Assembly (NCBI RefSeq): GCF_007748115.1
Contig: NZ_CP036289.1
Span: 1,922,001 to 1,986,000 of the forward strand
Source of the DNA: Bremerella volcania
Lineage (GTDB): Bacteria > Planctomycetota > Planctomycetia > Pirellulales > Pirellulaceae
Direction: 5' to 3'
Length of the DNA: 64,000 bases
Shown: positions 28,290 through 49,009 of the stretch, one piece after another
Numbering within the stretch: the stretch's first letter is position 1
Layout: each line of letters opens with the position of its first letter
Notes under the pieces: model-generated
The model's database searches: none
What the model was told of the DNA's origin: nothing
Seen by the model: the letters and a program-made list of their open reading frames with translations, nothing else
Translations under genes and position numbers: made by a program

Positions 28290-31200
28290 CAGTCCTCCAG
28301 GGACTCGTCCCCGGTCTCCACTTCATGCTTTGGCAGCGATGATGGCGGGGAATCGAATGACACTCGGGCGGTAGTAATGGTTTGCGTACTTGTTTCCCCA
28401 TCGCCGTTCGCGTCGACCTCGACCATTCGCTTCCCGGTGCGCCGATCGATCCGCGAGTTCCGCAATCGAATGATGTTCTCTAAACAACCGACAGCATCTA
28501 GATCTTTCACGGCCGTGGCATAGACTAGCTGCACATTCATTGCCTGAGCAACCTCTCGCTGCATGTCGAGGAACGTGATTCGTGACGCCGTCCCGATCGG
28601 ATTGTCCAGCACCAACACACTAGAGCTGGATTTACCATAACCCTCTTGCTGGCGCAGACGGATCAGAGTGCAGTAAAGCAGGATTGCGACGGTCAGCTTT
28701 TCGCCGCCACTGAACAATCCAAGATCATGAATATCAAATCGCGGACGACTCTGGTGTAAGTCCGGATGCAGTACCCTGACTCGGATTGGAGAGCCGATTC
28801 GGCGAACGGCCTTTTGAATCAACGAAATCCCTTCGCCGACTTCGCCCTGTTCTAGCAACTCGTCAACAAGGTCGCGAATCTTCGCGCGCCGCTCTGCTGG
28901 GTTGTCCGATGCTTTCGTAGTGATCTCCATAAAGCGTTTTCCGGCTTGAGGCAATGAATCGGGCAACCTCGACATTCGGGAGACTCGCCCCAACAAATCC
29001 AGCCCCTCGTTGGCAGCGCCGAGGATGACATCCACGACGATCTGCATCTGCTTCTCCGCCGTCTTCAGGTTTTCTTCGATATGAAAGATGCGTTCCTCGA
29101 TTTGCACGATGTCAGAGTCGGCATTCTGTTCGAGAGCGCTGGCGTGACGAGACTTGAATCGAACACTGACTGAATCGCGAATCTGCTCGAATCGCGACTC
29201 ACTTGAGGCACGATGAATCCTCTTGGCGATGTCCTCACGCTGCCGGTCGAGATGTTCACACTTCTCTCGCCCTTCTTGCAAAGTGGACGCGATTTCACCT
29301 GACATTCGTGCAACGTCTTCATCCGCCTTGATCAATAAAACTGGTTGGGCGTCAGGTTCGCCGTCTGGCAAGATAGCAGTTAAACGTTCAAGCACAGTTG
29401 CCTGTGCATCGGCAATCGTGCGAATGTTTGTAAGGTCCTTGCCAAGTGACTCGTTGCGATGTTCCAAATTCTGCAGTGTGCTACCTATGGCCACAAGTTC
29501 CTCACGCAACGCTTCAAGCCAGCGCGACTGTTCTACCGACTCCTTGCGAAGTCGTTCGGAATTTACAAGAATCTCATCATCTGTTCCTTCGGGTGAGAGT
29601 GATGGTAACGGCCCAGTCTTCTCAAGCTCGACCAATTCGTCCTGAGCCGCTTTCTGTTTCTCGCAAGCAGTGTCAACTTTGCGTTTCATTGGACCAAGCT
29701 GTCGTGTCGAATCATCGTACGCGCGCTCCGCATTTTCCTTCTGCTCGTCCACGGAGACACCTGCCGGCCGCTTTGCCAATTCTTCAGATACATCAGTCTT
29801 GCTGATCTCAGCAAACTTGCCGAGGACTCGTTCCAACTCCTTGTTTTCTGCCGCTGCTGCCTTGTCGGCACGTTCCGCCAATGCCAACAATCCCTGCTCG
29901 TTGAGTCTTCCCTCGTATCCCGCGCGCAGTTGCTCAAAGTCCGTCTTAAGCTGCTCTATATCGCCGGCGACAGCTGCGCGTCGCTCCGAATCTACGTAAT
30001 TGGCATCAAGCAATTGTTCTTCAAGCTTTGAAATAGCCAGTGACTTCACGTGTGCTTCTTCTTGTACGGCCTCGGCCTGATCACGGGCGAGTTTCGATTG
30101 GTCGAGTTTCGTTTGACTTCGTTCACGATGTTCCCGTGTCTGGTTCTTCTGTAAGTCGAGATCTTCTCGCCAATGCCCGAGCTTCAACCCGTATTGGCTC
30201 TGATACTGATCGCATCGCGACAGCTGCCGTTCGTATGCCGCGACTTCGTCCAAAGCTGTCTGAAGACGCTCTTCGTTGTCTTGTATCTGAATTGTTAGCG
30301 TCTCGACACTTTCAGTCGCCCGCGCGATGTCCGTGGTGCAATCATCAATCTGAGACTGTTGTGCATTCAGCTTTTGCTCGATCTCGTTGAACCAACCGCG
30401 AGGATAGTGCTGCCGGAAATCGCGCAAACGACCTGCCAACTTATTCAGGTCGTCGTACCATCTTTTACTCTCGGCAATCTCATCGTTACGCGCATCGACA
30501 ATCTCACTTAACCGCTTTCGTTCGTTGTCGGCTGACTGCGGATTAAAGTAGGCATCCGACTGTGGGCCGAATACCCGCCAATTCGCCAGCCCTTCGTCTT
30601 TAAGAGTCGAAACCGGAGCGACGGCCACTGGCGCCGTCAGACACGGTAAGCCAGAGTCTGCGGCGTTCGCGTTGCTGATTTCGGCGACGCGCTCAAAGTC
30701 CTTGTCAGCGACGACAATACCGCTGGCGATGTGGGGAAACTCGGCGATGCGTTCGCGAATGGACGAGACAGGAAAGTTCACCGCGAGGTACTGCCATCCT
30801 GAGTAGCAAGTGATTCCTGTCTGCTTCAGACGATCCAGGAGCGACTGCACATCACGACTGGCGGGTAAAAAGCCCGTGTCATCCAGACCAAAAATGTTCC
30901 GCTTGTCCTCTACCGAGGCTACTTCGAGGTCAAGGATCGCTTGATGCACGCGAGGTAACTCATCGTCGGCTTTGCTGATTGCCTTTGTTGCTGAAATATC
31001 CACGTTGACAGAGGATGCCTGCAACAGCCGCAAGAAAGCATCGTCCGCTTCCAGCTTGGCCTTGGCTTCCAGACCGCGTGTAAAGTCAGCCTTCAGAAGC
31101 GCGTGAGCTTTGTCAAATCGAACGCGATCGTGCTCCCGTTTCTGCTTATAGACCTCCTGTTGTCGACGGTCAGAGTCAAAGTCTTCGATAGTCGCTTTCT

Positions 31201-32803
31201 TGGCGTCAACTTCATTACGCGTGTTTTTCACCGACTCCGTGATTCGGCCACTTGCGGAATCGACAGTCTCGCCGTCGTGAAGAACTGATTCGTCACGAAG
31301 GCGTTTAAGTTCGCGCTCGGCCTCCTCAATCTTTTCGCTCAGTTGTGCGGCTAGCGTTTCAGATCTTGCCGCCCGTTCTCCTGATTCGGACCCTTCCTTT
31401 TGCAGTTGTTCTGCTCGCAGCTTGTGACGTTTTGCATTCTGCAGCAATGTTTCTCGCTCCCGACTAACCTGCTCCCGTCGGAAGTCAATCGCATTTGCAT
31501 ATTCAGTACACATCGTCACTAACTGCTGGTGATCCGGCTCAAGTTCTTTCTTGAGTCGCGCCAACTGTTCCCGACAATGATTTGCTTCTTTTGTGAAATT
31601 CTGGAGACGTGATAACGGCACTGCTGCCTGCCAGATGTTTTTCAGACGCTCTGCCGCGCGCATCTTGGTTTCTTGTGCCGCGTACTCCGATTCAAGTGTG
31701 GCAAGAATGCGAGAGCGCGCGATTTCGTTTAGCACCGCAGCTCTACGCAGCGCAGCACTTGATTCCTCTTCGGCCTCGCGCGTCTCAGCGCGGATCTCAG
31801 CTTCCTTTGATCGATGTTCCTCAACCTCAGCTAAGTTGTTTGTGATTTGTGTTTTGACCCATTGCTGCAGGAGATCAAGCCGCGCCTTTGAGCGTGCCAC
31901 ATCTTTTGCCGTGTCAACACGCTGGTTGCGGACTTGCGACATCTTTCTGAGTTGCTCGATCAATGCAAGGCACAATTCCCGTTCGGGCTTGAGCTGTTCA
32001 TTGCGCTCGAGAAGCTCATGGCGAAATGTCGACAGCTGCTCTTTGACCTGCTGTGCCTGTTGCGGATCAAATGTCATTTCCAGCAGGAAATCGACGAAAT
32101 CCTCAGACTCGGAGAACGAGAATCGTTCCGAAACACCGCCCTCCCGTTCGTTCATTCGGATCTGGTAGAAGAACACCTGCGGATCAATTCCCCGATCGGC
32201 GAGTTCCTTGGCAAATTCCTTTTGGCGGTCGTGAATGAAGACATCGTGATCCGGATAGTCATGCTGGAGTTGCCGCCAACGTCGACGAAAGCCCGCTAGC
32301 GTCCTGCGCCGGCGCGGCTGCCCATTAGATCCGCAAACCTCGACCTGTAACGGCAGACCGTCGAGCGTCAACTGAACTTCAGTGTCGGACACCTTGGTCG
32401 CAAAGTAGGCGGGATCGATGTCTCGAGTTGTCTCGCCATCACCCCCGGATTTTCGTTGATAGAAGAAGCCGCTGAGATAGCGTGGGCGATCGTCGTCAAA
32501 CAGCCTGCCGCCATCGTCGTCGAGTTCCCATTCACATACGACGACGCTTTGGTCACGTGGCCCGACGTAGTCCTCGATCCGTCGTATCTTCCCCTCAGCC
32601 CTCTTTCCAAGAAAGTCGATCTTGCTTGGCCTGATGCTCGCAAATAACAAGCTAAGCAATGATGTTTTGCCGCCACCGTTTCGCAACCATAGAATCGAGT
32701 TTGTTGGGCATTCTTGGTGATCCGTCAAGTCGAGCGTCACGTCTTCGAACCGGGCGCTGTCGTGGCCAACGGAAACCAGCCGTATGCGCCGTAGCTTAGG
32801 CAT
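28289..32803 (-). CDS. jetC: Wadjet SMC-like ATPase JetC
   Basis: 1504 aa from ATG 32803 (CAGGAG upstream). N-terminal Walker A LRNGGGKTS (residues 40-48), two very long coiled coils (about 250-620 and 830-1280) around a central hinge, and a C-terminal ATPase half. That half has the signature GLFSGGEKLTVA, Walker B VLVLDNPIG and a D-loop-type QLVYATAVKD. Length and layout match SMC/MukB-like JetC proteins. Start overlaps jetB by 8 bp. Motor of loop extrusion in the Wadjet complex. Confidence 0.9.
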   Translation of the reverse strand: MPKLRRIRLVSVGHDSARFEDVTLDLTDHQECPTNSILWLRNGGGKTSLLSLLFASIRPSKIDFLGKRAEGKIRRIEDYVGPRDQSVVVCEWELDDDGGRLFDDDRPRYLSGFFYQRKSGGDGETTRDIDPAYFATKVSDTEVQLTLDGLPLQVEVCGSNGQPRRRRTLAGFRRRWRQLQHDYPDHDVFIHDRQKEFAKELADRGIDPQVFFYQIRMNEREGGVSERFSFSESEDFVDFLLEMTFDPQQAQQVKEQLSTFRHELLERNEQLKPERELCLALIEQLRKMSQVRNQRVDTAKDVARSKARLDLLQQWVKTQITNNLAEVEEHRSKEAEIRAETREAEEESSAALRRAAVLNEIARSRILATLESEYAAQETKMRAAERLKNIWQAAVPLSRLQNFTKEANHCREQLARLKKELEPDHQQLVTMCTEYANAIDFRREQVSRERETLLQNAKRHKLRAEQLQKEGSESGERAARSETLAAQLSEKIEEAERELKRLRDESVLHDGETVDSASGRITESVKNTRNEVDAKKATIEDFDSDRRQQEVYKQKREHDRVRFDKAHALLKADFTRGLEAKAKLEADDAFLRLLQASSVNVDISATKAISKADDELPRVHQAILDLEVASVEDKRNIFGLDDTGFLPASRDVQSLLDRLKQTGITCYSGWQYLAVNFPVSSIRERIAEFPHIASGIVVADKDFERVAEISNANAADSGLPCLTAPVAVAPVSTLKDEGLANWRVFGPQSDAYFNPQSADNERKRLSEIVDARNDEIAESKRWYDDLNKLAGRLRDFRQHYPRGWFNEIEQKLNAQQSQIDDCTTDIARATESVETLTIQIQDNEERLQTALDEVAAYERQLSRCDQYQSQYGLKLGHWREDLDLQKNQTREHRERSQTKLDQSKLARDQAEAVQEEAHVKSLAISKLEEQLLDANYVDSERRAAVAGDIEQLKTDFEQLRAGYEGRLNEQGLLALAERADKAAAAENKELERVLGKFAEISKTDVSEELAKRPAGVSVDEQKENAERAYDDSTRQLGPMKRKVDTACEKQKAAQDELVELEKTGPLPSLSPEGTDDEILVNSERLRKESVEQSRWLEALREELVAIGSTLQNLEHRNESLGKDLTNIRTIADAQATVLERLTAILPDGEPDAQPVLLIKADEDVARMSGEIASTLQEGREKCEHLDRQREDIAKRIHRASSESRFEQIRDSVSVRFKSRHASALEQNADSDIVQIEERIFHIEENLKTAEKQMQIVVDVILGAANEGLDLLGRVSRMSRLPDSLPQAGKRFMEITTKASDNPAERRAKIRDLVDELLEQGEVGEGISLIQKAVRRIGSPIRVRVLHPDLHQSRPRFDIHDLGLFSGGEKLTVAILLYCTLIRLRQQEGYGKSSSSVLVLDNPIGTASRITFLDMQREVAQAMNVQLVYATAVKDLDAVGCLENIIRLRNSRIDRRTGKRMVEVDANGDGETSTQTITTARVSFDSPPSSLPKHEVETGDESLED

Positions 32804-33578
32804 GATAGGTCTCCTGCGATGCGACAATGCCCGTCGAACCGTCATCGCCGGTTGCCGAAGCGATCAAATCGTGGAACTCTCGATACAATTCAGATGCGGC
32901 CAATTCCTTTACGAGGATTTGATACTTCAGCGTAGGACGAAACGACGGGGAGTCTTTTGATCCGATGACGGTGAAACAACCCTGGTTCGCCAGCAATTGG
33001 AGATGCTTGTATATCAACCCGTGCGTCGAGTCCTTTGAGTGTAACCCGCTTTTCATCTTGCGAACCGCTGGGCGGCTCTCGTAAACCCGCCATGCTTCTT
33101 GAATGCCCTGCTGAAGCTGTTCATCGCTCAAGTCGCTGTCGCCGACGCGAGATTTTGCTGATTCCGACAACTCCCGCAGCATCTGGTCGACCTCTGCAAC
33201 GGTAATCGGAGGTTTCGCTTCATATGAATCTTCGTCAAGATCGCGCTGACGCGGATAAACGGTTGCCGCGATCGCGATCTGAATCAGCCCGTCCAACAAC
33301 CGGTCTTCACCCGATGTGCCGCTGCGAAATTCGCTCGGCTTCATTGCGAAGACAGATTGATTGCTCGTTCCCAGAAAAATCCCACGGTCGTTCACGTCTA
33401 CAACTATCAATCCCAACCCATCGGCCACATCGCGCACCATACCGCGAAACGCCTGACGATCAATAAATCGGTCGACTAACTCCATATATTCCGGTTCATT
33501 GAACGGAATCATACCGGGTTGAAGTCCGTATTGAATCAATCTTCCGGCCAAGAAAGCGTCACTTCTATCATCTTCCAT
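32796..33578 (-). CDS. jetB: Wadjet subunit JetB (MukE-like)
   Basis: 260 aa. Assigned mainly by position and size between the kleisin-like and SMC-like genes. Helical with two winged-helix-like blocks (residues 25-100 and 160-230), including a MKSGLHSKDSTHGLIYKHL segment. In JETABCD complexes this subunit binds the kleisin. No catalytic motif expected or seen. Confidence 0.8.
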   Translation of the reverse strand: MEDDRSDAFLAGRLIQYGLQPGMIPFNEPEYMELVDRFIDRQAFRGMVRDVADGLGLIVVDVNDRGIFLGTSNQSVFAMKPSEFRSGTSGEDRLLDGLIQIAIAATVYPRQRDLDEDSYEAKPPITVAEVDQMLRELSESAKSRVGDSDLSDEQLQQGIQEAWRVYESRPAVRKMKSGLHSKDSTHGLIYKHLQLLANQGCFTVIGSKDSPSFRPTLKYQILVKELAASELYREFHDLIASATGDDGSTGIVASQETYHA

Positions 33579-33591
33579 CGCTTCACGCCTT

Positions 33592-35070
33592 TTACGTGGT
33601 GGTCCTCTGGGGACAAATCAACAAGTCATCCCCGAACATGCGGTGATGTGCAAATCCGTCTTTCTCGTGCATGGCTACCTCGAACCCATCTATTCCGTCC
33701 TCCGGATCGAATTGTTCAAGGATTCGCAGCACGACGGCGTCCTGCACTTCGTCTGGACATCCATCTGTTTCGAGCCTTTGAATCAGTTCGGAAAGCACGA
33801 TCGCCCGATCCAACTCGACAAAAACCTTTTCTGACCCTTGCAGCACATCATCATCAAATCGTTTGACTTCGACACCTGACTCAAGCAGGTCAAGCTCTTC
33901 CATTTCAACTTCACCTTCTGTCCGAATGCGAAGCGGTTGCAACTGCCAAATGATGAGACCGGCCAATGAAAGCAACTTCGGTGTTCGTGCAGTAGCCAAC
34001 AAAGACGTCGCGTATTCGCCCAAGGGGACCACGTCGGCTTGCGGCATTGCCAATAAGGGCTGGAGAACTTCATCGCGGAGATTGATTGGCGTGATCGACT
34101 CAGAATCCGAAAAACACTGCCTGGTTTGCTGCTCAAAAAAGTGATTGCGCGTCTGCATCAACTGCCGGTTTAGATTCAAGTGACGATGGCGGCAATCGCG
34201 CATTAGGCGAATGACATCACCTACGGCATGTCGCTGGTCCTCGTCTAGCTGAACTGTAGCGAGCTTCTGCTGTGCCGAGTCGATGATGTCAGACTCGATC
34301 CGCTGGCGGTTTTGTACGTGGTCCATTGCTTCCACAAGCAACTCATGAACCTCGTTGCGCCAATCGACTTGCCGAATATCGCGCTTTGTCTGACCGACGA
34401 TGTGCTCGATCTTCTCTTGGTATCGAAGCGACTGTCCGCGGGCGTTTTCTGCGAAGGCGCGGGCCTGGTCGAACTTGCCCCGCTCAAGCTGAAACCGAAC
34501 TACCGCTTCATTCGCTTCCTGGGCACTTTCGATGTCCAAGTCCAGGGCGTTTAGGAATAGATTGATCGCTTCGGAAGAAAGCTGCAGCACAATTTCGCCA
34601 CTGTAACCGTGCATTTCCTTAAGCAATTTGAATCTGAGCACCTTGCGGTCGAGCTGCCATCGATCGTCGAAGTCCGCGTATTCAACTTCAAAGGCACGTC
34701 CCCGATTTGCATCGTTTTTCAGATAACCGATCAAGCGGTCGACGACCTGCAAGTGCCGGCGCTCGTTGGGGTCAAGATTCGTTGCATCGTCAAATGCGGC
34801 AAGCAGCGGGCGAAGCGACTGCAGCATTGTCTCGCGAGTAACCTCGTTGCCGAATCCGCTTCCATCAATGATCGCATCGAATAACTTGATTGAGAGCGTG
34901 AGCGCATCGTAATGAGCCTGATCCTCAGTTCCGAGTTTCCACTTCTGCTGCAGCGTTACGAGCGGCTGTGTATGCAACAACACACGTTGACGGCTATGAA
35001 GTGTCGAATTCCACGCCGGCTGTGTCTCGCGGGTTTGCTCAAGTTGTTGCTTTGCTGATTCGTCCATCAT
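33592..35070 (-). CDS. jetA: Wadjet kleisin subunit JetA (MukF-like)
   Basis: 492 aa from ATG 35070 (GTG 35085 is a weaker alternative). Helical throughout, with a central coiled coil (residues 190-320) and a winged-helix-like acidic C-terminus. First gene of the four-gene order jetA-jetB-jetC-jetD, which together with SMC and TOPRIM subunits identifies a Wadjet system. The type (I, II or III) was not decided because the domain families could not be searched. Confidence 0.8.
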   Translation of the reverse strand: MMDESAKQQLEQTRETQPAWNSTLHSRQRVLLHTQPLVTLQQKWKLGTEDQAHYDALTLSIKLFDAIIDGSGFGNEVTRETMLQSLRPLLAAFDDATNLDPNERRHLQVVDRLIGYLKNDANRGRAFEVEYADFDDRWQLDRKVLRFKLLKEMHGYSGEIVLQLSSEAINLFLNALDLDIESAQEANEAVVRFQLERGKFDQARAFAENARGQSLRYQEKIEHIVGQTKRDIRQVDWRNEVHELLVEAMDHVQNRQRIESDIIDSAQQKLATVQLDEDQRHAVGDVIRLMRDCRHRHLNLNRQLMQTRNHFFEQQTRQCFSDSESITPINLRDEVLQPLLAMPQADVVPLGEYATSLLATARTPKLLSLAGLIIWQLQPLRIRTEGEVEMEELDLLESGVEVKRFDDDVLQGSEKVFVELDRAIVLSELIQRLETDGCPDEVQDAVVLRILEQFDPEDGIDGFEVAMHEKDGFAHHRMFGDDLLICPQRTTT

Positions 35071-35253
35071 CGCCCCAGAAAACACTGAGTATAACGGATT
35101 TGCCAGACGTTTTCGCCATTCTTAAGCCAGCCTGTGGCAAGCTCGGCAAAATGCAGGTGTACAATCCGCAAAATTCGACTGTATTGCCAGCACGGCCAGA
35201 TCTGCGACAGAGTCATACGCATTGCGGTAAGAATCCTTCGTATCTTGATAGCT

Positions 35254-36070: not shown

Positions 36071-36907
36071 TTAACCCTGCCACTGGCGACAATCGGTTTC
36101 GCGGTAGTCGCACATCGAACAAGTCCAACCAGGCCGATACACGAACCGATTGGACTGTAGATCATCGAGGTAGGCGCGGATCACGGCGAACAGTCGCCGA
36201 AAGTGCGCGTCGCCGCGGGCGGGATAACGGTGTGTTTCAACCTTCGGGGTCTTCGTCTTGATGAGGCTGCGGATTTGCAGTTCTTGCTCGGTCGCACCGA
36301 ACACGTGCCGGAAGGCGTAGGCGTAGCAGGACAACTGAACTTCGTGAGAAATCTCAAGCGGCGCGCTCGTACGCGCTGCCGTCTTGAAATCAACGATCGT
36401 CATCCCGGTGGGCGTTTCAAGGATCAGATCGACGAATCCAAACAACGCCGTGCCCAAGTCGGCCCCGGTGTGAGGCTCGATCAGCGGGCACTCCAGCGGA
36501 CTTTCGACGGCGATTGGGAAGCCCTCTTTGCTATCATGTCTATCGAGATAGGCTCCGACCAATCCGATCGTTTGACACTTCAGTGCCGCTTCGTCGTCGA
36601 ACGAAGCGAACTGCATATCTTCAGCAGTGACTGCTTCATCCCACGAGTCGGAAATGTGCTGCGAGACGTCGGCAGACGTCACGTTCTCGCCAGCCTGAAT
36701 TTGGCGATAGAAGAATTCCAAGCCAGCGTGGACGCGCTTGCCGAGAAATAGACTCGGTGAGGTCGGCTCTTTGATGCCATCCACATAACGCAGCTTGAAC
36801 TTCAACGGACATGACACCCAGGTGTTCAGTCTGGTGGGCGATACGTAATCGAGAAGTCCCGAATTGTTATCGCGCGCGGGACTGGCGCGGGTCAGTGTGG
36901 CAATCAT
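36071..36907 (-). CDS. PD-(D/E)XK nuclease with Fe-S cluster signature (RecB/Cas4-like)
   Basis: 278 aa from ATG 36907 (GGAG 7 nt upstream). YVSPTRLNTWVSCPLKFKLRYV at the start (quoted in part: SCPLKF, Cys33), the catalytic core LFGFVDLI...IVDFKTA, then QLSCYAYAF and C-terminal Cys263-x2-Cys266-x6-Cys273. One N-terminal and three C-terminal Cys around a PD-(D/E)XK core is the AddB/Cas4/Dna2 iron-sulphur arrangement. A DNA end-processing nuclease. No cas genes are near, so Cas4 is not implied. Confidence 0.85.
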   Translation of the reverse strand: MIATLTRASPARDNNSGLLDYVSPTRLNTWVSCPLKFKLRYVDGIKEPTSPSLFLGKRVHAGLEFFYRQIQAGENVTSADVSQHISDSWDEAVTAEDMQFASFDDEAALKCQTIGLVGAYLDRHDSKEGFPIAVESPLECPLIEPHTGADLGTALFGFVDLILETPTGMTIVDFKTAARTSAPLEISHEVQLSCYAYAFRHVFGATEQELQIRSLIKTKTPKVETHRYPARGDAHFRRLFAVIRAYLDDLQSNRFVYRPGWTCSMCDYRETDCRQWQG

Positions 36908-36924
36908 TCTATTCTCCAAATGAG

Positions 36925-36999: not shown

Positions 37000-37668
37000 T
37001 TATGCGACCGTGCATTCGCCGGCGAGCAGGTTGAGTGTGGTGTCGCAATCGACGGGAAGGCGACGCAACCAGCGGGTGAACTGGTGGACCATCAGTCCGG
37101 CCGCGATACTGGCGGCGTAGATCGTGCTACGGGACGTGCAACTGCCGGTCTGAGCATCTGCCGGGGCAAACAGCGTGTTTGCGTAGCGGGCGAATGTGTC
37201 GGTATCGCTTGCGGCGAGGATACGAATGGTCTCGCCCAACATGCGGCCGTCCACCCAGAACCGGCAGCGGTTGGCTGCGGATCGCCAAATGGCAGCCCGC
37301 GTGGAGATCGAATCGACGCAGCAAAACACTGCCTCACCGATCTCCAGCTTTGCACGGTAGCGATCCTGAATCGTCGCAACTTGAATCGAAGCATCCAGAC
37401 GACGAATCGCAGTGGCCGTTGCAAGCACTTTCGGCTGATCCACATCTTCGGCCGCGTAGCCTTGTGTCGTGACATTGGTCACATCCACCGCGTCAAAGTC
37501 GACCAATTGAATGCGCGGAGCACCAATGGCCGCAAGTTGTAGTGCCACTTGGCGGCCAATGGCGCCGACACCGATGACGGTGGTTGCGACATCGGCCAGA
37601 CGATCGCTCGGTACAAGGTCTCGCTGTCGCGTGAAACGATCGTGGGGTGTGATCTCAATTGCGTTCAT
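37000..37668 (-). CDS. E1-like ThiF-family adenylyltransferase
   Basis: 222 aa from ATG 37668. ThiF/MoeB/E1 fold: FTRQRDLVP at the N-terminus, nucleotide loop GVGAIG (33-38), LVDFD (56-59), TNVTTQGY and QPK with Lys80, CVDS (117-120), and a candidate catalytic cysteine Cys177 in TGSC before the crossover helix. It should adenylate the C-terminus of a ubiquitin-like protein and pass it on as a thioester. The start overlaps the JAMM gene stop by 4 bp; Ubl and E2 genes lie just upstream. Short for an E1: no adenylation-domain duplication and no ubiquitin-fold domain. Confidence 0.88.
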
Positions 37669-38360
37669 ACAATCAGCTCCTCCGCATCCTCTTCGTCGGC
37701 CGCATAGTCGAACCAGCTTTCGTACCAACTGTTAGTTGGTTTCTCTTCGAATGGTGAGGCAAGCGCGGGTTCCAATTCGGCGGCCATGCTGCGGACCGGT
37801 TGTGCAGCGTGTACATTGGTCAGATACTCCTGCTCCCAGGCATCGGGTTCGGAGGCGCCAAACGGCCGCAAGTAATCAACGCCGACGGGGATCTCGACTT
37901 CGGCGCATGGCCCGACGTTGAAACGCAGCCGAGCGTACGACTGGCCTTCGCAGGCCAGGATGAACATTACAGCCCAATCCGAACGGCCGAAGACGCGGCC
38001 AAATGTCTCCTCGTCCGTCATACTCGGTCGCGGGCAGTCGCCCGGATGCGTATGCACCCAGATGCGGGCGAATTGTTCGGGCCTTCGCTCGGCATCCACC
38101 TGACGATCAAAGAAATCAGCGACCGATTCGTCGTCGAACGCGACGTGTGCCCACGAACAAACTTGCTTGACGAGTTGAATGTCTTCAACGAACAACAGGT
38201 CGTCCCTCGTCCCGATGCCGAAACCGCCGACTTCCGTGTCGCCATAATCACGCAGGAACAGCAACTTGGCCCACGCGGTTGGGCTGAATCGGAGCGTCGG
38301 CGTCGTCGCGTCTGTGACCGCTTCCGTCACTTTCCGTTTCTTCTTCGAGTTCTTGGTCAT
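37665..38360 (-). CDS. JAB/JAMM metallopeptidase (deubiquitinase-like)
   Basis: 231 aa from ATG 38360. Complete JAMM site: Glu43 in EVGGFG, His103-Thr-His105-Pro, Ser113 and Asp116 in [14 protein letters not shown] (HxH-x7-S-x2-D). These bind zinc in Rpn11/AMSH-type isopeptidases. The C-terminal 70 residues are acidic. It overlaps the E2 gene by 113 bp in another frame and the E1 gene by 4 bp. Likely roles are trimming the Ubl precursor or removing it from targets, as in other bacterial Ubl operons (inference). Confidence 0.88.
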
Positions 38361-39294
38361 GGCAATCAGAACACCTTTCGTTGTCATCGAGGCAGCCCTG
38401 GCAAAGCTCAGCATCGCAACGCGAGCACTCCTTCATGCAGCCGCTGCAATGGTTCTCATCGCAGCCTTCGCAGCGTGTCGTGCATTCGTTGCAGAAGATG
38501 CCGTCGCAGCCAGGGCAGTTGAAGTAACATTCGCCGCACACCGTCGTCTCACACTTTTCGCACGTCCACCGCTGGTCGTCGCAGACGGTACTGCCGCAGT
38601 CGGCACATTCCACGCCGTGCCAATCCGATAGTGAAACGAAGGGGCTACCAGAGTTGTACGTCCGTAGCAAGTTGGCGACGATCATGAAGAAATCGAGCAA
38701 GCGGCCCTGTTCCAGCGCTTTGCGGATCGACTGATGCCCATCGCCTTCACAAACCCCTTCGTCTTGCACGTGGGGATGCGTAACGCTCTCATTCGCTGCA
38801 GCGGGATTGGGATCGACGGCGATCACGCGATAGTTATACGGATGGCCTTTCAGCAAGTCGGTCCAATCCAGACGAATCTCAAACGGACCCAAATAAACAC
38901 CGTCTAGCTCAATGGCCTCCGTCGTGACCGACAACGTGTGCTCTCTTCGATGGAAGGCGACATCTTCGAACTCATCGTGCAGAGCGACTAGGTCAGCAAA
39001 GATGTCGCCCACCGAGGCTTTGCGGCCTTCGTCGCCTGATGGTCGAAGCTTGTGGTCAAGTTCCGCTACCTCATTGCGAAGTCGCTCGACCGCCAAACGC
39101 TGGTCGTGATTCAGCCGATCGGCCGCCAGGTTCCAGCCGCGCTGGGAAGCTTTCCGCAGCTTGCGATTTAGCATTTCGCATTGTTGCCACGCTGCCGCTG
39201 GCAGCGAGAAGCATTTGTCATTGGTAATTTTCGAGTGAAGCCGCTCGTGGATCGCGATTGCCATCCGGATGAGCAGCCGTTGTTGGCGCGTCAT
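38248..39294 (-). CDS. E2-like ubiquitin-conjugating domain fused to four 15-residue zinc repeats
   Basis: 348 aa, ATG 39294 with GGAG upstream. Residues 1-95 are helical. Residues 105-226 look like an E2: THPHV at 172-176 takes the place of the HPN motif, then EGVC with candidate active-site Cys182, then a helix [13 protein letters not shown] and the SLSDWHG end. Residues 230-311 hold 21 cysteines. Within this, Cys pairs recur with exact 15-residue spacing (245/248-253/256, 260/263-268/271, 275/278-283/286, 290/293-298/301), each C-x2-C-x4-C-x2-C, flanked by CxxC pairs at 230 and 308. This could act as an E3-like RING substitute. Acidic tail at 315-325. Confidence 0.75.
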
Positions 39295-39371: not shown

Positions 39372-39596
39372 TTACGATTTCGCGCCCTCGATTTTCGTTG
39401 GCGTGATGGAGATGCGGTCCCCTTCACGCAACACCTGATCCGCCGGGCAGGGCTGACGATTGACACGGATCAGGTAGTGACTCGGCTTGGTAGCGCCGAT
39501 TTGTCGCTCGAACAGTTGAGCGACAGTCGTGCCATCGGCGACGTCCACGTAATCGGCGAAGCCGCCGCCGTCGTTGTTGATCACCAGAATCTTCAT
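39372..39596 (-). CDS. Ubiquitin-like beta-grasp protein
   Basis: 74 aa, ATG 39596 after AAAGGA. A beta-grasp layout ([27 protein letters not shown] helix, [21 protein letters not shown]), similar to MoaD/ThiS and short bacterial Ubls. The C-terminus reads KIEGAKS: not a terminal Gly-Gly, but a Gly four residues from the end. If conjugation is used, the last three residues must be removed first, a job that fits the JAMM peptidase encoded two genes downstream (inference). Located directly before the E2 gene. Confidence 0.8.
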
Positions 39597-39645: not shown

Positions 39646-39834
39646 TCAAGTCGGTTGCCGCACCGGCCATCGTCGCATTCGACGGCGCGATGCGTTCTTG
39701 ACTTCGCGCCGCCCTCGCCGTTGGCCACCACGCAACTGGTTTTGCTTGCTCGAATCACCGTTGCGCAGTGCGGAGTCATCAGTCACGGCGGCAACGCGAA
39801 GTTGACGCTTTTGCTCAAGCGACGGCCGGTTCAT
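39646..39834 (-). CDS. Small basic hypothetical protein (62 aa)
   Basis: ATG 39834 with GGAGG 8 nt upstream, overlapping the 3' end of the preceding gene by 20 bp. Very basic, especially the C-terminal half ([18 protein letters not shown]). No family. Called because of the ribosome site and because it fills the gap before the Ubl gene. Confidence 0.4.
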
Positions 39835-40030
39835 AGCGCGGCCTCCGCGTTTCTGCTTCGTGACGCTGCGCCTCCAATTCGTCCCAATCGATGACGTAAG
39901 GGCCGTGTTCGTCGGCCTCGGGATCGAGACCGTCGCTCGGTTCGGCGAGCAGAAACCCGAGACGTTTGATGGTGGAAACGGTTTCGCCCGTGGCGCGGGC
40001 GACGGCGCGGTCAAGGTCGGCCTGTTTCAT
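39815..40030 (-). CDS. Small hypothetical protein (71 aa)
   Basis: ATG 40030, AGGAG upstream. N-terminal helical part MKQADLDRAVARATGE...STIKRLGFLL resembles small DNA-binding-like proteins common in planctomycete accessory regions. It continues with PYVIDWDELEAQRHEAE. Function unknown. Confidence 0.6.
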   Translation of the reverse strand: MKQADLDRAVARATGETVSTIKRLGFLLAEPSDGLDPEADEHGPYVIDWDELEAQRHEAETRRPRYEPAVA

Positions 40031-40061
40031 GGAAAGCACTCCTGTTGAGGTGGGGAAACGA

Positions 40062-40110
40062 AAAAAGCCCCGGCCACACAGGTACAGTTGCCTGCGTGGC
40101 CGGGGCAAAA
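40062..40110. terminator. Perfect GC-rich hairpin with flanking A/T runs (bidirectional terminator or attenuator)
   Basis: GCCCCGGCCAC (40067-40077) pairs without mismatch with GTGGCCGGGGC (40096-40106). An inner CAGG/CCTG pairing, A6 before and A5 after complete it. It sits inside the same-strand gene string, between the genes at 40138 and 40030, so the Ubl/E2/JAMM/E1 part may be expressed at a different level from the upstream part. Confidence 0.75.
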
Positions 40111-40137
40111 AGGTATACGTGTTGTCGTTGACGGCGG

Positions 40138-40386
40138 TCAGTCGAGCGGTGGCAGCAGCCAGTGCTTGTGCAACCACTCGGATTCCGCGTTGAGGGCGTC
40201 GCTGCGGCGAGCAAATGGGCCGAGCCGTGGCCCGCCTACCGGCGCCAGATCAGCGAACCAGCGACCGTCTTGATCGGGCTCGACGTGTGATCCACGAGAA
40301 ATGGAAACATGCCCGATATGGGTGAGGTCGATGGATTCAGCGTAGACGTAGCGGATCGTGCCGCCGGGGGAGATCAGAAGTTGCAT
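40138..40386 (-). CDS. Small hypothetical protein (82 aa)
   Basis: ATG 40386, GAGG upstream. Beta-rich start (MQLLISPGGTIRYVYAES), a central RGSHVEPDQDGRWFADLAP and GPRLGPFARRSDALNAE, ending in a helix with Trp/His. It resembles small planctomycete proteins that handle substrate adaptors, but no function is known. 11 bp downstream of the 40397 gene. Confidence 0.65.
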   Translation of the reverse strand: MQLLISPGGTIRYVYAESIDLTHIGHVSISRGSHVEPDQDGRWFADLAPVGGPRLGPFARRSDALNAESEWLHKHWLLPPLD

Positions 40387-40396
40387 AGCCGGGTCC

Positions 40397-41338
40397 TCAC
40401 TTGGGCGAACGAATGATCCGTCGCCGTGGTCGGTCAACAAGCAGTCCGTCCAGCACCGATTGGACGCCGGAAAGCTGCGTGGCAACCTGCTGGCGCAGGC
40501 CCCCGTTGTCGCGCAGTTCCTGTGGTTGGACTCCATCGACGACCTGACGACACTGTGAAACAAGCGAATCGAGCTGATCGTTAGATCGCACATTCAGTGC
40601 GCGGAAACGATTGAAAAACTCACGCAAGTTTCCCACGGCCGTGTCGCGGAAGATCTTGGGCTTGCCGTCTTCGTGACCGCCCAGCCGCTCGGTGAGATGC
40701 GAAACCAGTTGCGACAGCTCCTCGATGAACGCCTGCTCGGCCATCTGCACGGCCTCGTCAAAACGGGCCTGCACGCGGCGGCATTCTTGCTCGTACAACT
40801 CCGGATTGAGTTGTTGCAAATACGACGGCGGCTCGACGCTGGGAAAATCCCAAGAGACATCGAACATCCCCGCGAGCGATGCCGGATAGTCGGCTTCGTT
40901 GTAAAGGCTACCCAGTCGCTCTTCAGCCGCCACTTTGAGCGCTGCATATCGCTCGTCAAGTCCGGCCACGGCTTCGTCGAGTTCCTCCTTGAAAACGCTC
41001 ATTTGGTCCTGAAATGTCGCCAGCGTATCCTGCCGCACCAAGCGAATCCCGGGCTCGGGATAGGGTAGGCTGAGCGACGCCCAATAGGCACGCGTGCGAT
41101 TGCGCACCGAGGTTACTGCCTTGAAACGCGGATGTTTGGTGTCGAGCAGTTTCTTGCCGGCGCTGAGAAAATCGCCCTCGGCTCCGAACGATTCGGCCGC
41201 CTGGGCCTTCTGAGCCGTCGAAAGCGTTTTCCGTGTGCCGAACCACGTGAAGCTGACGCGTGTGGCGCACATCGTCGCCCGCATCTGATCTGCCGCGCCG
41301 GTGCGCTGCGTCGGCGGTCGGCCTGTGGAAACAGTCAT
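40397..41338 (-). CDS. DUF3150-like helical protein (313 aa)
   Basis: ATG 41338, GGAG upstream. Long helices and the recognisable TWFGTRKTLSTAQK...FLSAGKKLLDTKHPRFKAV start, then WDFPSVEPPSYLQQLNPE and a C-terminal helical bundle. The pattern fits the DUF3150 family seen in phages, plasmids and planctomycete accessory clusters. Activity unknown. Confidence 0.65.
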   Translation of the reverse strand: MTVSTGRPPTQRTGAADQMRATMCATRVSFTWFGTRKTLSTAQKAQAAESFGAEGDFLSAGKKLLDTKHPRFKAVTSVRNRTRAYWASLSLPYPEPGIRLVRQDTLATFQDQMSVFKEELDEAVAGLDERYAALKVAAEERLGSLYNEADYPASLAGMFDVSWDFPSVEPPSYLQQLNPELYEQECRRVQARFDEAVQMAEQAFIEELSQLVSHLTERLGGHEDGKPKIFRDTAVGNLREFFNRFRALNVRSNDQLDSLVSQCRQVVDGVQPQELRDNGGLRQQVATQLSGVQSVLDGLLVDRPRRRIIRSPK

Positions 41339-41897: not shown

Positions 41898-42257
41898 TCA
41901 GACGTAATTTGCCAGGACATCACGAGCGTCGCGGATGATTTGCTCCAATTCCTCTCCTGGCCGTCCCCGCTCATACCACGACACGAGTCTGGCCAGGTTC
42001 GACATCAACGGCACGTCCTGGCTGTAGTACCACTGCGACTGGGCATATTCATCGTCGCCAACGACATCGACAAGAAAATGGGACAGTTCCTCGGCGTACT
42101 CCGCTTCTGTCCCGTCGAAGCAAGCGTAAAGATCGGTTTTCCCAAGTGTGGCCTCAATCGCCTCGCGATGTGATGTCGCGTCGATGCCGGCTACCTTGCG
42201 CCTGACCACGGCGAACAGGTGGACGTCGTATTGCTGAAGCTGTGGTTGATCAGACAT
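41898..42257 (-). CDS. Hypothetical protein (119 aa)
   Basis: ATG 42257. A short beta start (YDVHLFAVVRRKVAGIDATSHREAIE), typical of small adaptor-like domains. Then helices with an acidic EYAEELSHFLVDVVGDDEY stretch. Overlaps the gene upstream by 8 bp. No family recognised. Confidence 0.6.
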   Translation of the reverse strand: MSDQPQLQQYDVHLFAVVRRKVAGIDATSHREAIEATLGKTDLYACFDGTEAEYAEELSHFLVDVVGDDEYAQSQWYYSQDVPLMSNLARLVSWYERGRPGEELEQIIRDARDVLANYV

Positions 42258-42654
42258 GACGTGCTTCTCTCTCGCACTCGTCGCTGGCGATGGAGTCAGC
42301 GTCGTGCGTTTCAGCCTCACTGACATATAGCAGCTTTCCTCGTTTCATCATCCACGGGGCAGGAGCCAGATGTTCCAGCCAATCCTGAGCGGTCGGGATA
42401 CGTCCGAGGTCTTCCTTGACATGCTGCTCGCCGATGAATCGCACAGGGATCGACCGACCGTCGCTATTGGTGATTGTCACACCGAACAAACGTTCCAGCA
42501 GGAAGATGCCTTCGGCGTGATGGCGCAATGCCCGGTGGCGAAAGTCGGCAAAGAACGCCTTCGATTCGTCGAGCCACTGGTGCAGCGGCAGATAATCGTC
42601 CGGCCGCCCGCCAAAATGAGCGGCGCTCGAAAGGGCATGATGGTACGGATTCAT
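42250..42654 (-). CDS. DUF6915-like protein (134 aa)
   Basis: ATG 42654 (GGGAGC upstream). Characteristic start MNPYHHALSSAAHFGG, DYLPLHQWLDESKAFFADFRHRALRHHAEG, then GEQHVKEDLG. His-rich helices suggest a metal- or nucleic-acid-binding fold, but no activity is known. Overlaps both neighbours by 4-8 bp. Confidence 0.6.
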   Translation of the reverse strand: MNPYHHALSSAAHFGGRPDDYLPLHQWLDESKAFFADFRHRALRHHAEGIFLLERLFGVTITNSDGRSIPVRFIGEQHVKEDLGRIPTAQDWLEHLAPAPWMMKRGKLLYVSEAETHDADSIASDECEREARHV

Positions 42655-43106: not shown

Positions 43107-44612
43107 TCAGTTGACACTGGGATCGCGTGGAATCTTCCGCCGCGACTTGGCTTTCGAACCGCTCGCGGTTGTGTAGATTCCCACCGTGTCTGCCGACAGG
43201 CAGCGACCGCTTGCCCAGTTACGCAATTGATCGACCGATTCGGCCGAGGTGACCGCAACCGGCACGATGTTTTGGGCCGCCTGTACGAGCGGAACATCGA
43301 GCAGGGCGGCAAGACGGCAACAGGCTCGAATCTCCGCGCCGGTCCAATGTTGATCGTCGGGAAGACGTTGGTCGGCTTCGATGCCGAACAGGTCGAGATA
43401 CATTCGCCAGATGGCTTGCTTCTGTTGTTTGCCGGGCAAGTCAAGAAAGAACAAACCGTCAAAGCGTTCCGCGCGACAAAACTCTGGCGGCAGTTTTGTG
43501 ACATCGTTCGCGGTGCAAACGACGAACACGTCCGATTCATGATCGTTGAGCCACGAGAGCAACGAACCAAACATCCGCGCAGAAACTCCGCTGTCGGTTT
43601 GGCCGGAACCGGCAACGCCGCTGAGTGCCTTTTCAACTTCGTCCACGAAGAGCACGGCCGGTTGCATGGCATCGACGATCCGCAGCGCCCGGCGCGTTCG
43701 CTCCTCAGTCTGTCCTACGAGCGAACCCATCAGCGCTCCAACGTCGAGCGTCAGCGTCGGTCGGCCCGTTTCATTGCCGAGCGCCTTGCAAAACGCGCTC
43801 TTTCCCGTGCCCGGCACGCCCAGTAGCAGCACGCCCCGCGGCTTGAGCGCCCGTGTGCTGCCGTTGTGTGGCCGCATCGCGCGCAGGCAAAACGACTTGA
43901 GCGACTCCAGTCCGCCAAGGTCGGAAAAAGACTCGCTTCCTCGATGAAGGGAGAGCAGACCGTTCTTGGTCAGCGTCTGCGACTTGAGTTCCCAAATCGA
44001 CGACGGCTCGATACGTCCATGCCGCACGAGCGAAAGACTGAAGGCGCCCTCGACTTCGTACCGTGTGAGTCCGCAAGCGGCGTCGAGCACGCGCTGCAAC
44101 TCGACTCCGGTAGGCAACTCGCCATCTTCGGTGGCGACGCCGCGGGCGATCTCATCGATCTGATCCCGATCAGGCAACTCGTGTTCGATGCAGACGATTA
44201 GCTTTTCCAGTTCAGTGGGGATTTGCACGACCGGCGACAAGACGACGACAAACGTGCGGTTGTTCTTACCCTGCACAATCTGCCGGGCCATGGCCTGGAC
44301 GACTTCCGCGGAATTCAGAAACCGATGAAAGTTGACGAGCACCAACAGTGACGGGTTCTCGTCATCCGCCATGGCGCTCAGTGCCCGAACCGCCGCCAGC
44401 GGATCGGCTCCCGCCGCCGTATCCGCCGTGCTACCGTCCGTACCACCCGATAATCGCAATCCCTGGTCGATATCCCAAGTGGCCATCTTCCATTGCTCGT
44501 TGTGGCAGAGACGGGCAATCTCCAGCAGCGCGTCTTCATGCTCGTGGCTTTGAATCCAAATGCCGGCGAAGCACGCGCGCACGGTCTCCGCCAAACGCTC
44601 TGATAGCGTCAT
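43107..44612 (-). CDS. Ycf46-like AAA+ ATPase
   Basis: 501 aa, ATG 44612 (AAGGAA upstream). N-terminal regulatory domain (1-225) with a degenerate ATPase look. Then an active AAA+ module: SDLGGLESLKSF, Walker A GVPGTGKSA (265-273), LVGQTEERTRRAL, Walker B VLFVDEVEKA (320-329), sensor VVCTANDV and arginine finger FCRAERFDGLFF. The arrangement is that of Ycf46/FtsH-class AAA proteins. DUF2997 and DUF1257 genes lie upstream, a pairing also known for Ycf46 homologues. It could unfold Ubl-tagged substrates (inference). Confidence 0.85.
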   Translation of the reverse strand: MTLSERLAETVRACFAGIWIQSHEHEDALLEIARLCHNEQWKMATWDIDQGLRLSGGTDGSTADTAAGADPLAAVRALSAMADDENPSLLVLVNFHRFLNSAEVVQAMARQIVQGKNNRTFVVVLSPVVQIPTELEKLIVCIEHELPDRDQIDEIARGVATEDGELPTGVELQRVLDAACGLTRYEVEGAFSLSLVRHGRIEPSSIWELKSQTLTKNGLLSLHRGSESFSDLGGLESLKSFCLRAMRPHNGSTRALKPRGVLLLGVPGTGKSAFCKALGNETGRPTLTLDVGALMGSLVGQTEERTRRALRIVDAMQPAVLFVDEVEKALSGVAGSGQTDSGVSARMFGSLLSWLNDHESDVFVVCTANDVTKLPPEFCRAERFDGLFFLDLPGKQQKQAIWRMYLDLFGIEADQRLPDDQHWTGAEIRACCRLAALLDVPLVQAAQNIVPVAVTSAESVDQLRNWASGRCLSADTVGIYTTASGSKAKSRRKIPRDPSVN

Positions 44613-47050: not shown

Positions 47051-49009
47051 CTACGCCGCCTCGTCTGAGTCGGCCGATCCGTCCGACTGCTCGTCGTCAG
47101 ACTCCGACGGCGAGTCGTCTCCAGGATCGTCGCCGGTCTGCTGGGCATCGACGAAACGCTTCCACGCGCGGTACGCACGGTTGAGGTCCAGGCCGGTGAT
47201 CTCAACGATCTCCGTCCATTTGGTTCCCTCGGCCCGCATCTCAGCGATCTTCGGGGCCCAATGGTCCATCAAGGTGGGGCCGCCCAGGTCGATGACAAAC
47301 TCCTCCGAGGATTCGTCGTTGACGCAGTTCGCCAACAACGCGTCCAGAGCGTCGCCGGAGTCCGCTGACGACAGGATCGCTTTCAAGGCTTCCCAGGCGA
47401 GGACGCGAAAGCGCAGGCGGGCGTACCCGCGCGATTTGCCAGGCGGAATCACCTGATCGGCTTCGATGCGGCCGACGATCTTCCGCAGCAACAGCGAGGC
47501 TTCGTAGCCACCTTCGCGGATCACCGACGCCAGACCATCGAGTTGCTGCTGAATCCACTTGTCATCCGGCATTTCCACCGGTGCGGAGAGCAGTTTGCGG
47601 GCATCTTCGATCTTCTTGCGAAGTCGTTTTGCTTCACGCTCCGCTTCGTCGAGACGGTCACGGACCGCTTGGCTCTGGACGCGGCCTTCGGCCAAGGCAT
47701 CAACGAGATTGGCGACTTGGGATTCGACGTCCCGTAGGCGCCGCTCATCATGGGCGACTTCTTCGGGAACGCGCTGGGTGACCTCTTCGATCTGTTGACG
47801 CATGGCGGCCAGCGCCTCATCAAGCCACTCAGGCCACGACGTTAGCAGCTTGGCGAGAAACTCCAGCACGGCTTCCTCCGCCTTCTCAACGGGCACGCGC
47901 GTAGTCAGTTCGCAGCAATAGTCGTCCGCGCCGCGATTATGGCAGCCCAGATACAGCCGTTTGCCGCTCGCCTGCTGCCACATGCGGGAACCGCACTTGC
48001 TGCAAAACACCATGCCGGCCAGCAAACCGTTGGGATAGATCGCCGTATGATGGACCTTGGGCCCACGGTGCTTCTGTCCCGGCTTTTTGCCGTATAACTC
48101 CTTGAGGTCGGCCAGACCTTTTTGGGCCGCGTCCCAAACGTCGTCCTCGATGATCCGCAGCTCTGGACGCTCGACGACAACCTGCAACTCTTCGGGCACA
48201 GGGATTTGCTTCTTTTTGCCCTGGGAGTTACGGATGGTGCGGGTCGTCCCCCAACGCCATTTGATGATGTACTTCTCGTTTTCCAGGATCTTGCGGACGT
48301 GACGGGGACGCCAACGATTGGAGCGACGGCGATGTCCCCGCGGCGCATTCTGGCGGTTCAGTTCTTCTGCGATCCAGGAAATGGAACGCCCTTTGTTGAA
48401 CCACTCAAAGATCTTGCGAACCCACTTCGCTTCGGATTCTTTGATGCGAAGTCCACGTTCCGGTTTCGGGCCCCGGCTCTCGGCGGCCTTCTCCGGATTC
48501 AGCAGATAGGACTCATAGCCGTAACAGTAATCGCCGGCAGAAAGTTGACCGAGGATGCGACCAAGCTGCCCGCGGCGAACACGGCGGCCAAGTTCACGAA
48601 TGGTGGTGGAGTTATGTAGCTCCATCACCTTCACTCGCAACTCCCAGCCGGTTTGCTCGGTGTCGATTCCTTCGCCGGTCGCGATAAAACGTCCACCCAT
48701 GTAGACCAGATCGGTAATGAACGCGAACGTGTTGTCCGCCCGGCTCAAACGCGACTGATCATCCACGGCCAGGATACCGATCTGGCCGCTTTCCATCATC
48801 GCTTGCAACCGCTTGAAGTCATCGCGAAACACCTTGGTCCCACTTTCGGCTTCGTCGTAGATGACGATCGCCTTGGAGTGGTCGATCCCCATTCGCGTGA
48901 GCGCTTCGCGGACTTCGCGCTCCTGATCCTTGCACGACTTGTTGGATTGCAAGTCGCTGGAAAACCTCGTGTAGATCACGAGGGCCAAACTCAAGACCAT
49001 GGCAAGCAT
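47051..49009 (-). CDS. Large serine recombinase, copy 1 (652 aa)
   Basis: Resolvase/invertase catalytic domain (1-150) with YTRFSSD (Ser17), RLSR and an RELGRRVRRGQ linker. It is followed by a recombinase domain (GDYCYGYESYLLNPEKA...), a zinc ribbon (CSKCGSRM...CHNRGADDYCCEL) and a coiled coil. ATG 49009 follows AAGGAG. The C-terminus adds an HTH-like block (KIAEMRAEGTKWTEIVEITG) and an acidic tail that most relatives lack. Transcribed away from the second recombinase. Catalyses integration or excision of DNA. Confidence 0.9.
   Translation of the reverse strand: MLAMVLSLALVIYTRFSSDLQSNKSCKDQEREVREALTRMGIDHSKAIVIYDEAESGTKVFRDDFKRLQAMMESGQIGILAVDDQSRLSRADNTFAFITDLVYMGGRFIATGEGIDTEQTGWELRVKVMELHNSTTIRELGRRVRRGQLGRILGQLSAGDYCYGYESYLLNPEKAAESRGPKPERGLRIKESEAKWVRKIFEWFNKGRSISWIAEELNRQNAPRGHRRRSNRWRPRHVRKILENEKYIIKWRWGTTRTIRNSQGKKKQIPVPEELQVVVERPELRIIEDDVWDAAQKGLADLKELYGKKPGQKHRGPKVHHTAIYPNGLLAGMVFCSKCGSRMWQQASGKRLYLGCHNRGADDYCCELTTRVPVEKAEEAVLEFLAKLLTSWPEWLDEALAAMRQQIEEVTQRVPEEVAHDERRLRDVESQVANLVDALAEGRVQSQAVRDRLDEAEREAKRLRKKIEDARKLLSAPVEMPDDKWIQQQLDGLASVIREGGYEASLLLRKIVGRIEADQVIPPGKSRGYARLRFRVLAWEALKAILSSADSGDALDALLANCVNDESSEEFVIDLGGPTLMDHWAPKIAEMRAEGTKWTEIVEITGLDLNRAYRAWKRFVDAQQTGDDPGDDSPSESDDEQSDGSADSDEAA

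Follow-up and report, generated by a model that had tools for sequence, protein, structure and literature searches.

The window analysed here, a 64,000-nucleotide stretch of Bremerella volcania DNA, contains an open reading frame in which an E2-like domain appears to be followed by a regular array of cysteine pairs. This raises the question of whether a Ubl-conjugating enzyme could carry a zinc-binding arm of its own, and what such an arm would do. The reading that we favor, with a probability of roughly 0.55, is that the protein is a Ubl-conjugating E2 with an in-cis zinc arm of variable length that binds targets or partners. The gene and its parts are arranged as follows.

38248–39294, minus strand: E2-array gene, an open reading frame of 348 aa with a match in 20 of 147 genomes, its own included.
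39025–39294, minus strand: N-terminal helical region, residues 1–90, with model helices at 3–21, 33–52 and 55–83.
38611–39012, minus strand: E2-like domain, residues about 95–228 (limits assigned here), from the model, PDB fold matches and a motif link to UQ_con proteins.
38770–38778, minus strand: HPH motif, residues 173–175, the counterpart by alignment of the E2 HPN motif, invariant in 16 rows of alignment A4.
38749–38751, minus strand: putative catalytic Cys182, present in 45 of 45 proteins, invariant in A4 and aligning with the E2 catalytic Cys.
38362–38607, minus strand: predicted zinc array of ten CxxC pairs, residues 230–311, its cysteines counted and aligned.
38506–38607, minus strand: array pairs 1–4, closest to the E2-like domain, residues 230–263, with cysteines invariant in A1 and A4.
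38383–38562, minus strand: four exact 15-residue units, residues 245–304, read from the sequence.

A sequence-only reading of this DNA had described an exact 15-residue register and 21 cysteines in 82 residues, and the translation of the frame bears out both. The cysteines lie at residues 230, 233, 238, 245, 248, 253, 256, 260, 263, 268 and 271, and at 275, 278, 283, 286, 290, 293, 298, 301, 308 and 311 (38359–38607 of the window corresponds to residues 230–312), and the pattern C-x2-C-x4-C-x2-C starts at residues 245, 260, 275 and 290. The array begins five residues after W225, which is invariant; C238 is unpaired and is not a conserved column. We infer that the array binds zinc.

There are several striking features of the array. 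First, it is well conserved. Of 46 distinct planctomycete frames, one (the fragment L065) was left out and 45 were aligned, including the window's own protein (L004). The four-unit register is kept in 36 of the 45, allowing His at residue 271 and Ser at 275, and the off-register proteins comprise six that are one residue shorter in pair 4 and three that lack pair 8; all ten pairs are kept in 40 proteins, nine in two and eight in three. Second, the viral arrays differ in length, with 20 CxxC pairs in L077, 19 in L086, 20 in L087, 17 in L098, 18 in L119, 21 in L134, 21 in L212, 20 in L213 and 18 in L214, and shorter arrays in L074 (13), L084 (10) and L089 (9); that of L076 is divergent and irregular, with 9 pairs. 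A chance pattern or a frameshift artefact is rejected because the array is kept in the 45 aligned planctomycete proteins and has 17–21 pairs in nine viral ones. Third, recent tandem duplication of the units is likewise rejected, since the four DNA units of the window array have only 19–27 of 45 bases in common, and identity outside the cysteines is higher at the same position across proteins (0.20) than between positions (0.11). Finally, the arrays are acidic: all 45 planctomycete ones have a net charge between −5 and −17 (−14 in the window), and the ten viral ones for which it was computed range from −16 to −25.

The region preceding the array is E2-like, as judged from its predicted structure. 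H173 and P174 are each present in 44 of the 45 aligned planctomycete proteins and H175 and C182 in all of them, which places a conserved Cys about nine residues past the HP motif, as expected of an E2; the Asn of the HPN motif is absent, its place (residue 175) being taken by His in every protein of the alignment. A first AlphaFold2 model from 4 sequences was poor (pLDDT 52.8), and one from 16 sequences has a pLDDT of 85.9 and a pTM of 0.59, with 10-residue blocks scoring 80–93 over residues 221–310. A Foldseek search of the PDB gave 287 matches at E up to 10, none below 0.001. Among the best 50 of the 287, 41 have titles naming an E2-type enzyme (UFC1 counted among them) or an E2 complex, and the E2 rows there have E values of 0.059 to 0.9 and target TM-scores of 0.28–0.54; tandem PHD fingers occupy the top two rows, and LIM and CHY zinc entries are also among the matches listed. 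Against viral models the fold search gave five matches with E below 0.001, to giant-virus and phage proteins (one of them nameless), at low TM-scores. Searches of Pfam, NCBIfam and PADLOC gave no confident family for the E2-array protein, and there was no Pfam E2 match among 42 members. The hhalign comparison with one human E2 is not significant (probability 0.3%, P 0.24), yet it places HPH on HPN and C182 on the Cys of that enzyme. The fusion of an E2 to a repeated Cys array, as first read from the sequence, is upheld in the form of an E2-like domain followed by the array by sequence, alignment, model, fold matches and comparison with a second family (A5, see below).

It had also been claimed that the periodicity is not that of a RING cross-brace, and this is now doubtful. 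A cross-brace joining pair 8 with 10 and pair 7 with 9 predicts that alternate pairs are lost jointly, and pairs 8 and 10 are both missing from L018, from L031 and from the viral L089; L049 comes close, with pair 8 missing and pair 10 reduced to its first Cys. L033 is a counter-case, in which pair 8 is kept and pair 10 is missing; its frame ends early. In a 54-row tree built on the E2 part, two changes are needed to account for L018, L031, L089 and L049, and a single origin of the loss is compatible with the starred branches and present in only 2% of bootstrap trees. The remaining six pairs could be joined either as 1–3, 2–4 and 5–6 or as 1–2, 3–5 and 4–6.

Pairs 1–4 have the spacing C-x2-C-x11-C-x2-C-x4-C-x2-C-x3-C-x2-C, which we take to be close to the spacings of B-box, ZZ and RING domains. 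The likeness to these and to Siva-type binuclear zinc domains extends to borderline PDB sequence matches of the family profile (Midline-1, E 0.0079, profile positions 241–288; TRAF3, E 0.013, 236–287) and to a sub-threshold Siva match in Pfam (7 of 42 members, best E 0.0022). Weak PDB profile matches over pairs 1–4 include the zinc domains of ZSWIM2 (E 0.061) and dystrobrevin (E 0.16). Unlike those domains, the array has no significant profile match and its units continue in tandem. The sequence-only reading had named a profile match to a RING or B-box array as grounds for giving it up; no such match was clearly found, there being no Pfam RING or B-box match in any of the 42 members.

The genes surrounding the E2-array gene suggest the context in which it acts.

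39372–39596, minus strand: Ubl (ThiS/MoaD-like), 74 aa from the chosen Met, its ten terminal letters not shown; Pfam ThiS E 7.9e-4, sub-threshold.
37665–38360, minus strand: JAB peptidase (start chosen), overlapping the 3′ end of the E2 gene; Prok-JAB E 8.6e-5, narrowly sub-threshold.
37000–37668, minus strand: E1-like ThiF adenylyltransferase; ThiF E 1.5e-22.
39815–40177, minus strand: associated small gene without a family, beside many planctomycete cassettes; no Pfam match.
40138–40593, minus strand: associated gene, near cassettes; no NCBIfam match.
40397–41338, minus strand: associated gene, near cassettes, without a confident family in Pfam and NCBIfam.
43107–44612, minus strand: AAA ATPase; Pfam AAA E 6.3e-26, the nearest NCBIfam families, CDC48 and PAN, being far below cut-off.

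All four core genes (Ubl, E2-array, JAB and E1) are present at 35 of 43 planctomycete loci, among which L003 and L036 coincide. The incomplete loci are L038, L044, L060, L061, L062, L065, L069 and L073, some of which are contig ends or fragments. Among 11 viral records (a count that does not include L212–L214) six have all four genes within the stretch of sequence covered, two of these with identical E2 proteins, and all 11 have E2 and JAB. The key residues are well conserved, as counted in planctomycete matches above 60 bits together with chosen viral ones: Gly132 of the Ubl (135-aa frame) in 45 of 45, followed by 1–7 further residues; in the JAB protein (249-aa frame) E61 in 47 of 47, H121, S131 and D134 each in 46 of 47 and H123 in 45 of 47; and in the E1 (242-aa frame) G53, G55 and G58 in 43 of 43 and C197 in 42 of 43. 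Ubl, E1, E2 and JAB genes thus lie side by side with their key residues kept, as expected of a prokaryotic Ubl-conjugation operon. A homologue of the AAA ATPase, which itself matches the NCBIfam CDC48 model at E 9.9e-21 (73.7 bits, cut-off 802.65), is present in 11 of the 14 viral records. Some match was found in all 19 planctomycete genomes tested, in 17 at E 1e-197 or better and in G120 and G138 to general AAA only; a strong match lies within about 5 kb of at least 20 E2 places.

Other genes are found nearby. A PD-(D/E)XK nuclease with sub-threshold Cas4 similarity lies at 36071–36919 of the window, with relatives near a few cassettes, and a DUF6915 protein is encoded both in the window (42250–42654) and in the 98 kb viral record L214 (2052–2528). 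Adjoining, at 27207–35085, is a Wadjet-like set with PADLOC matches to JetA3 (E 2.2e-87) and JetC3 (E 1.4e-185), a sub-threshold DUF2399 protein in the JetD position and JetB assigned by position only; Wadjet as part of the system is not supported by a weak test, in which no frame of the 43 loci, extending about 8 kb at most on each side, had JetA as its best match. Genes for a RuvB-like ATPase, an AAA_5 ATPase and a DUF2201 (VWA-like) protein are consecutive at 23659–26911.

The occurrence of the E2-array protein is patchy. The 20 matching genomes, of which the B. volcania genome (6.5 Mb, one contig) is one, have up to seven matches each, and in one of them, G014, the match is a fragment only; none of the eight same-genus genomes has a match. 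Homologues with 85–86% identity occur in MAGs labelled Planctomycetaceae or Pirellulaceae; a further one, in a Planctomycetota MAG, has 56% identity. Of 392 genomes searched across the phylum, 31 have a match, full-length in 14 and limited to the array in 17; for nearly all genomes no more than five candidates were scored. This patchiness fits horizontal spread, and a serine recombinase is encoded at 47051–49009 of the window.

A search of viral contigs with a DNA pattern revealed an E2-array protein at 8 of 16 loci (L074, L076, L077, L081, L084, L086, L087 and L089, those of L077 and L081 being identical); L078 has an E2 motif without such an array and was dropped. Another pattern search added L098, L119 and L134, three of the 39 frames listed for its first 80 loci, the others being mostly low-complexity Cys-rich frames, and a further one added three new loci, L212–L214. 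Protein queries of the viral contigs gave nothing for the window protein and for L077 only its own two records, and tblastn of the INPHARED phages gave no match with either; plasmids, searched with the window protein only, gave one weak array match. Prok-E2_B had no match in 146 genomes, and its control was likewise silent. A terminase profile has a match in 7 of the 14 viral records, above cut-off in 6 of them, and also in 6 of 14 control cellular genomes; it therefore supports the viral label without proving it. Zinc-rich proteins adjoin the viral E2-array genes in L098 (6639–7418), L119 (2430–3167) and L212 (459–1244); the two tested match HNH endonuclease families and are perhaps homing endonucleases. 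Similar arrays exist in proteins without a recognised E2. A Halocatena salina plasmid protein (L215, 2720–4750) has a C..C....C..H array and adjoins an SNF2-related gene, and a planctomycete frame of 1121 residues (L253, 2316–5678) has about 21 Cys/His units by pattern.

Twelve array-only regions, of which 11 were read (L255 has no frame), yielded a second family, A5: five planctomycete proteins in which an E2 domain is followed, as in the window protein, by a C-terminal array of the 15-residue type. In A5 the E2 is a classical one with HPN; Pfam UQ_con matches all three members tested above cut-off (E 6.6e-11, 2.4e-9 and 1.3e-9), and one member matches PDB E2 sequences (best E 1.3e-5). In hhalign the E2 parts of the two families align in register, with Cys182 on the catalytic Cys, at P 0.0027 and a probability of 11%; the arrays align strongly (P 3.6e-10), a value that their common Cys spacing alone may inflate. 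The A5 arrays, which include some His, are the only basic ones (+4 to +9). The A5 loci also carry E1 and JAB genes, and at L260, L262 and L263 a Prok-RING_1 gene, in which the domain sits on a trypsin-like protease (L260 9089–10384, L262 5959–7242, L263 5599–6888). Prokaryotic RINGs were reportedly described by Burroughs et al. in 2011. Since an array E2 and a Prok-RING_1 protein coexist in the A5 system, the array does not simply replace a RING, which argues for binding. The occurrence of a second E2 with an array beside a Prok-RING_1 gene also means that the original remark of no described equivalent is not safe.

How might such a protein work? Following an order of steps taken from known Ubl systems, JAB would trim the Ubl after its invariant Gly, and the ThiF-type E1 would adenylate it and hand it to Cys182. 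The array, as a series of cross-braced zinc units acting in cis, could form an arm for the recruitment of targets (alternatively of the Ubl or the AAA ATPase) and might favor Ubl transfer in the fashion of an E3; the AAA ATPase would act on tagged targets, from which JAB would take off the tag. An E3-like or substrate-binding role for the array is plausible, and the arm probably holds targets or replaces a separate ligase. As array length varies, the arm probably works more by binding than by one fixed catalytic geometry.

The conservation of the array, the E2-like model and fold matches, the cassette with its key residues, the nearby AAA ATPase and the A5 parallel together make an E2 with an in-cis zinc arm the best explanation. 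Against it stand the lack of any PDB fold match reaching E 0.001, the His in place of the HPN Asn, the lack of a Pfam E2 match, the weak hhalign results against both the human E2 and the A5 E2 part, the A5 system with both array and RING, the arrays without E2 and the counter-case L033. A possible but less probable alternative is that the array only binds (a target, the Ubl, the AAA ATPase or itself) and leaves E2 chemistry unaffected; the range of 8 to about 21 pairs, the separate Prok-RING_1 gene of A5 and the arrays in proteins lacking a recognised E2 would all suit it, whereas pairs 1–4, with their invariant cysteines, start so close behind the E2-like domain that they could touch it.

We consider it very unlikely that the protein is only a metal-binding scaffold whose E2-like domain is inactive (RWD-like). 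The missing Pfam match, weak fold E values and replaced Asn could be taken that way, but Cys182 is invariant in the 45 proteins and in A4 and aligns with the catalytic Cys of UQ_con-type proteins, and the Ubl, E1 and JAB proteins keep their key residues. It is at least as improbable that the array is a nucleic-acid binder that steers conjugation towards proteins on DNA or RNA: the SNF2-related neighbor in Halocatena salina and the Wadjet-like and RuvB-like genes in the window hint at this, but the planctomycete and viral arrays are negatively charged and only the five A5 arrays are basic.

If an E2 with an in-cis zinc arm is the correct reading, a bacterial Ubl system would solve target choice through a built-in arm of its E2, whose length could change through added zinc units, and the family would offer a compact system in which to study how E2s acquire E3 function. 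Phages would carry the same module, and what they tag would become a question. We suggest, tentatively and at well under even odds, that planctomycetes and large phages have in common a self-contained module for Ubl tagging (Ubl, E1, E2, JAB and AAA ATPase) whose E2 bears an expandable zinc arm of its own for E3 function or targeting; the number of 15-residue units would determine which or how many targets are tagged, and phages would have lengthened the arm.

BIRC6 and UBE2O are eukaryotic E2/E3 hybrids and thus also combine E2 and ligase function in one chain; to our knowledge neither has such a zinc array, and both are much larger proteins. A literature search covering titles and abstract openings found no E2 with such an array among the papers listed, and an earlier description is possible; a word search of the jumbo-phage overview PMC7824862 gave no occurrence of JAB or Ubl and a single one of 'ubiquitin', in a reference title. 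The closest relatives in organization are prokaryotic operons, of which Iyer et al. 2006 (PMC1779556) describe E1/E2/Ubl/JAB examples and zinc-finger partner proteins, and a review (PMC11354881) BilABCD and prokaryotic RINGs. In these too, Ubl, E1-like, E2-like and JAB genes are found together, some on mobile elements. In contrast to the systems presented in the parts of those two papers concerned with such operons, where no such array is described, the window E2 bears an HPH motif and ends in an array, and its cassette usually has an AAA ATPase nearby.
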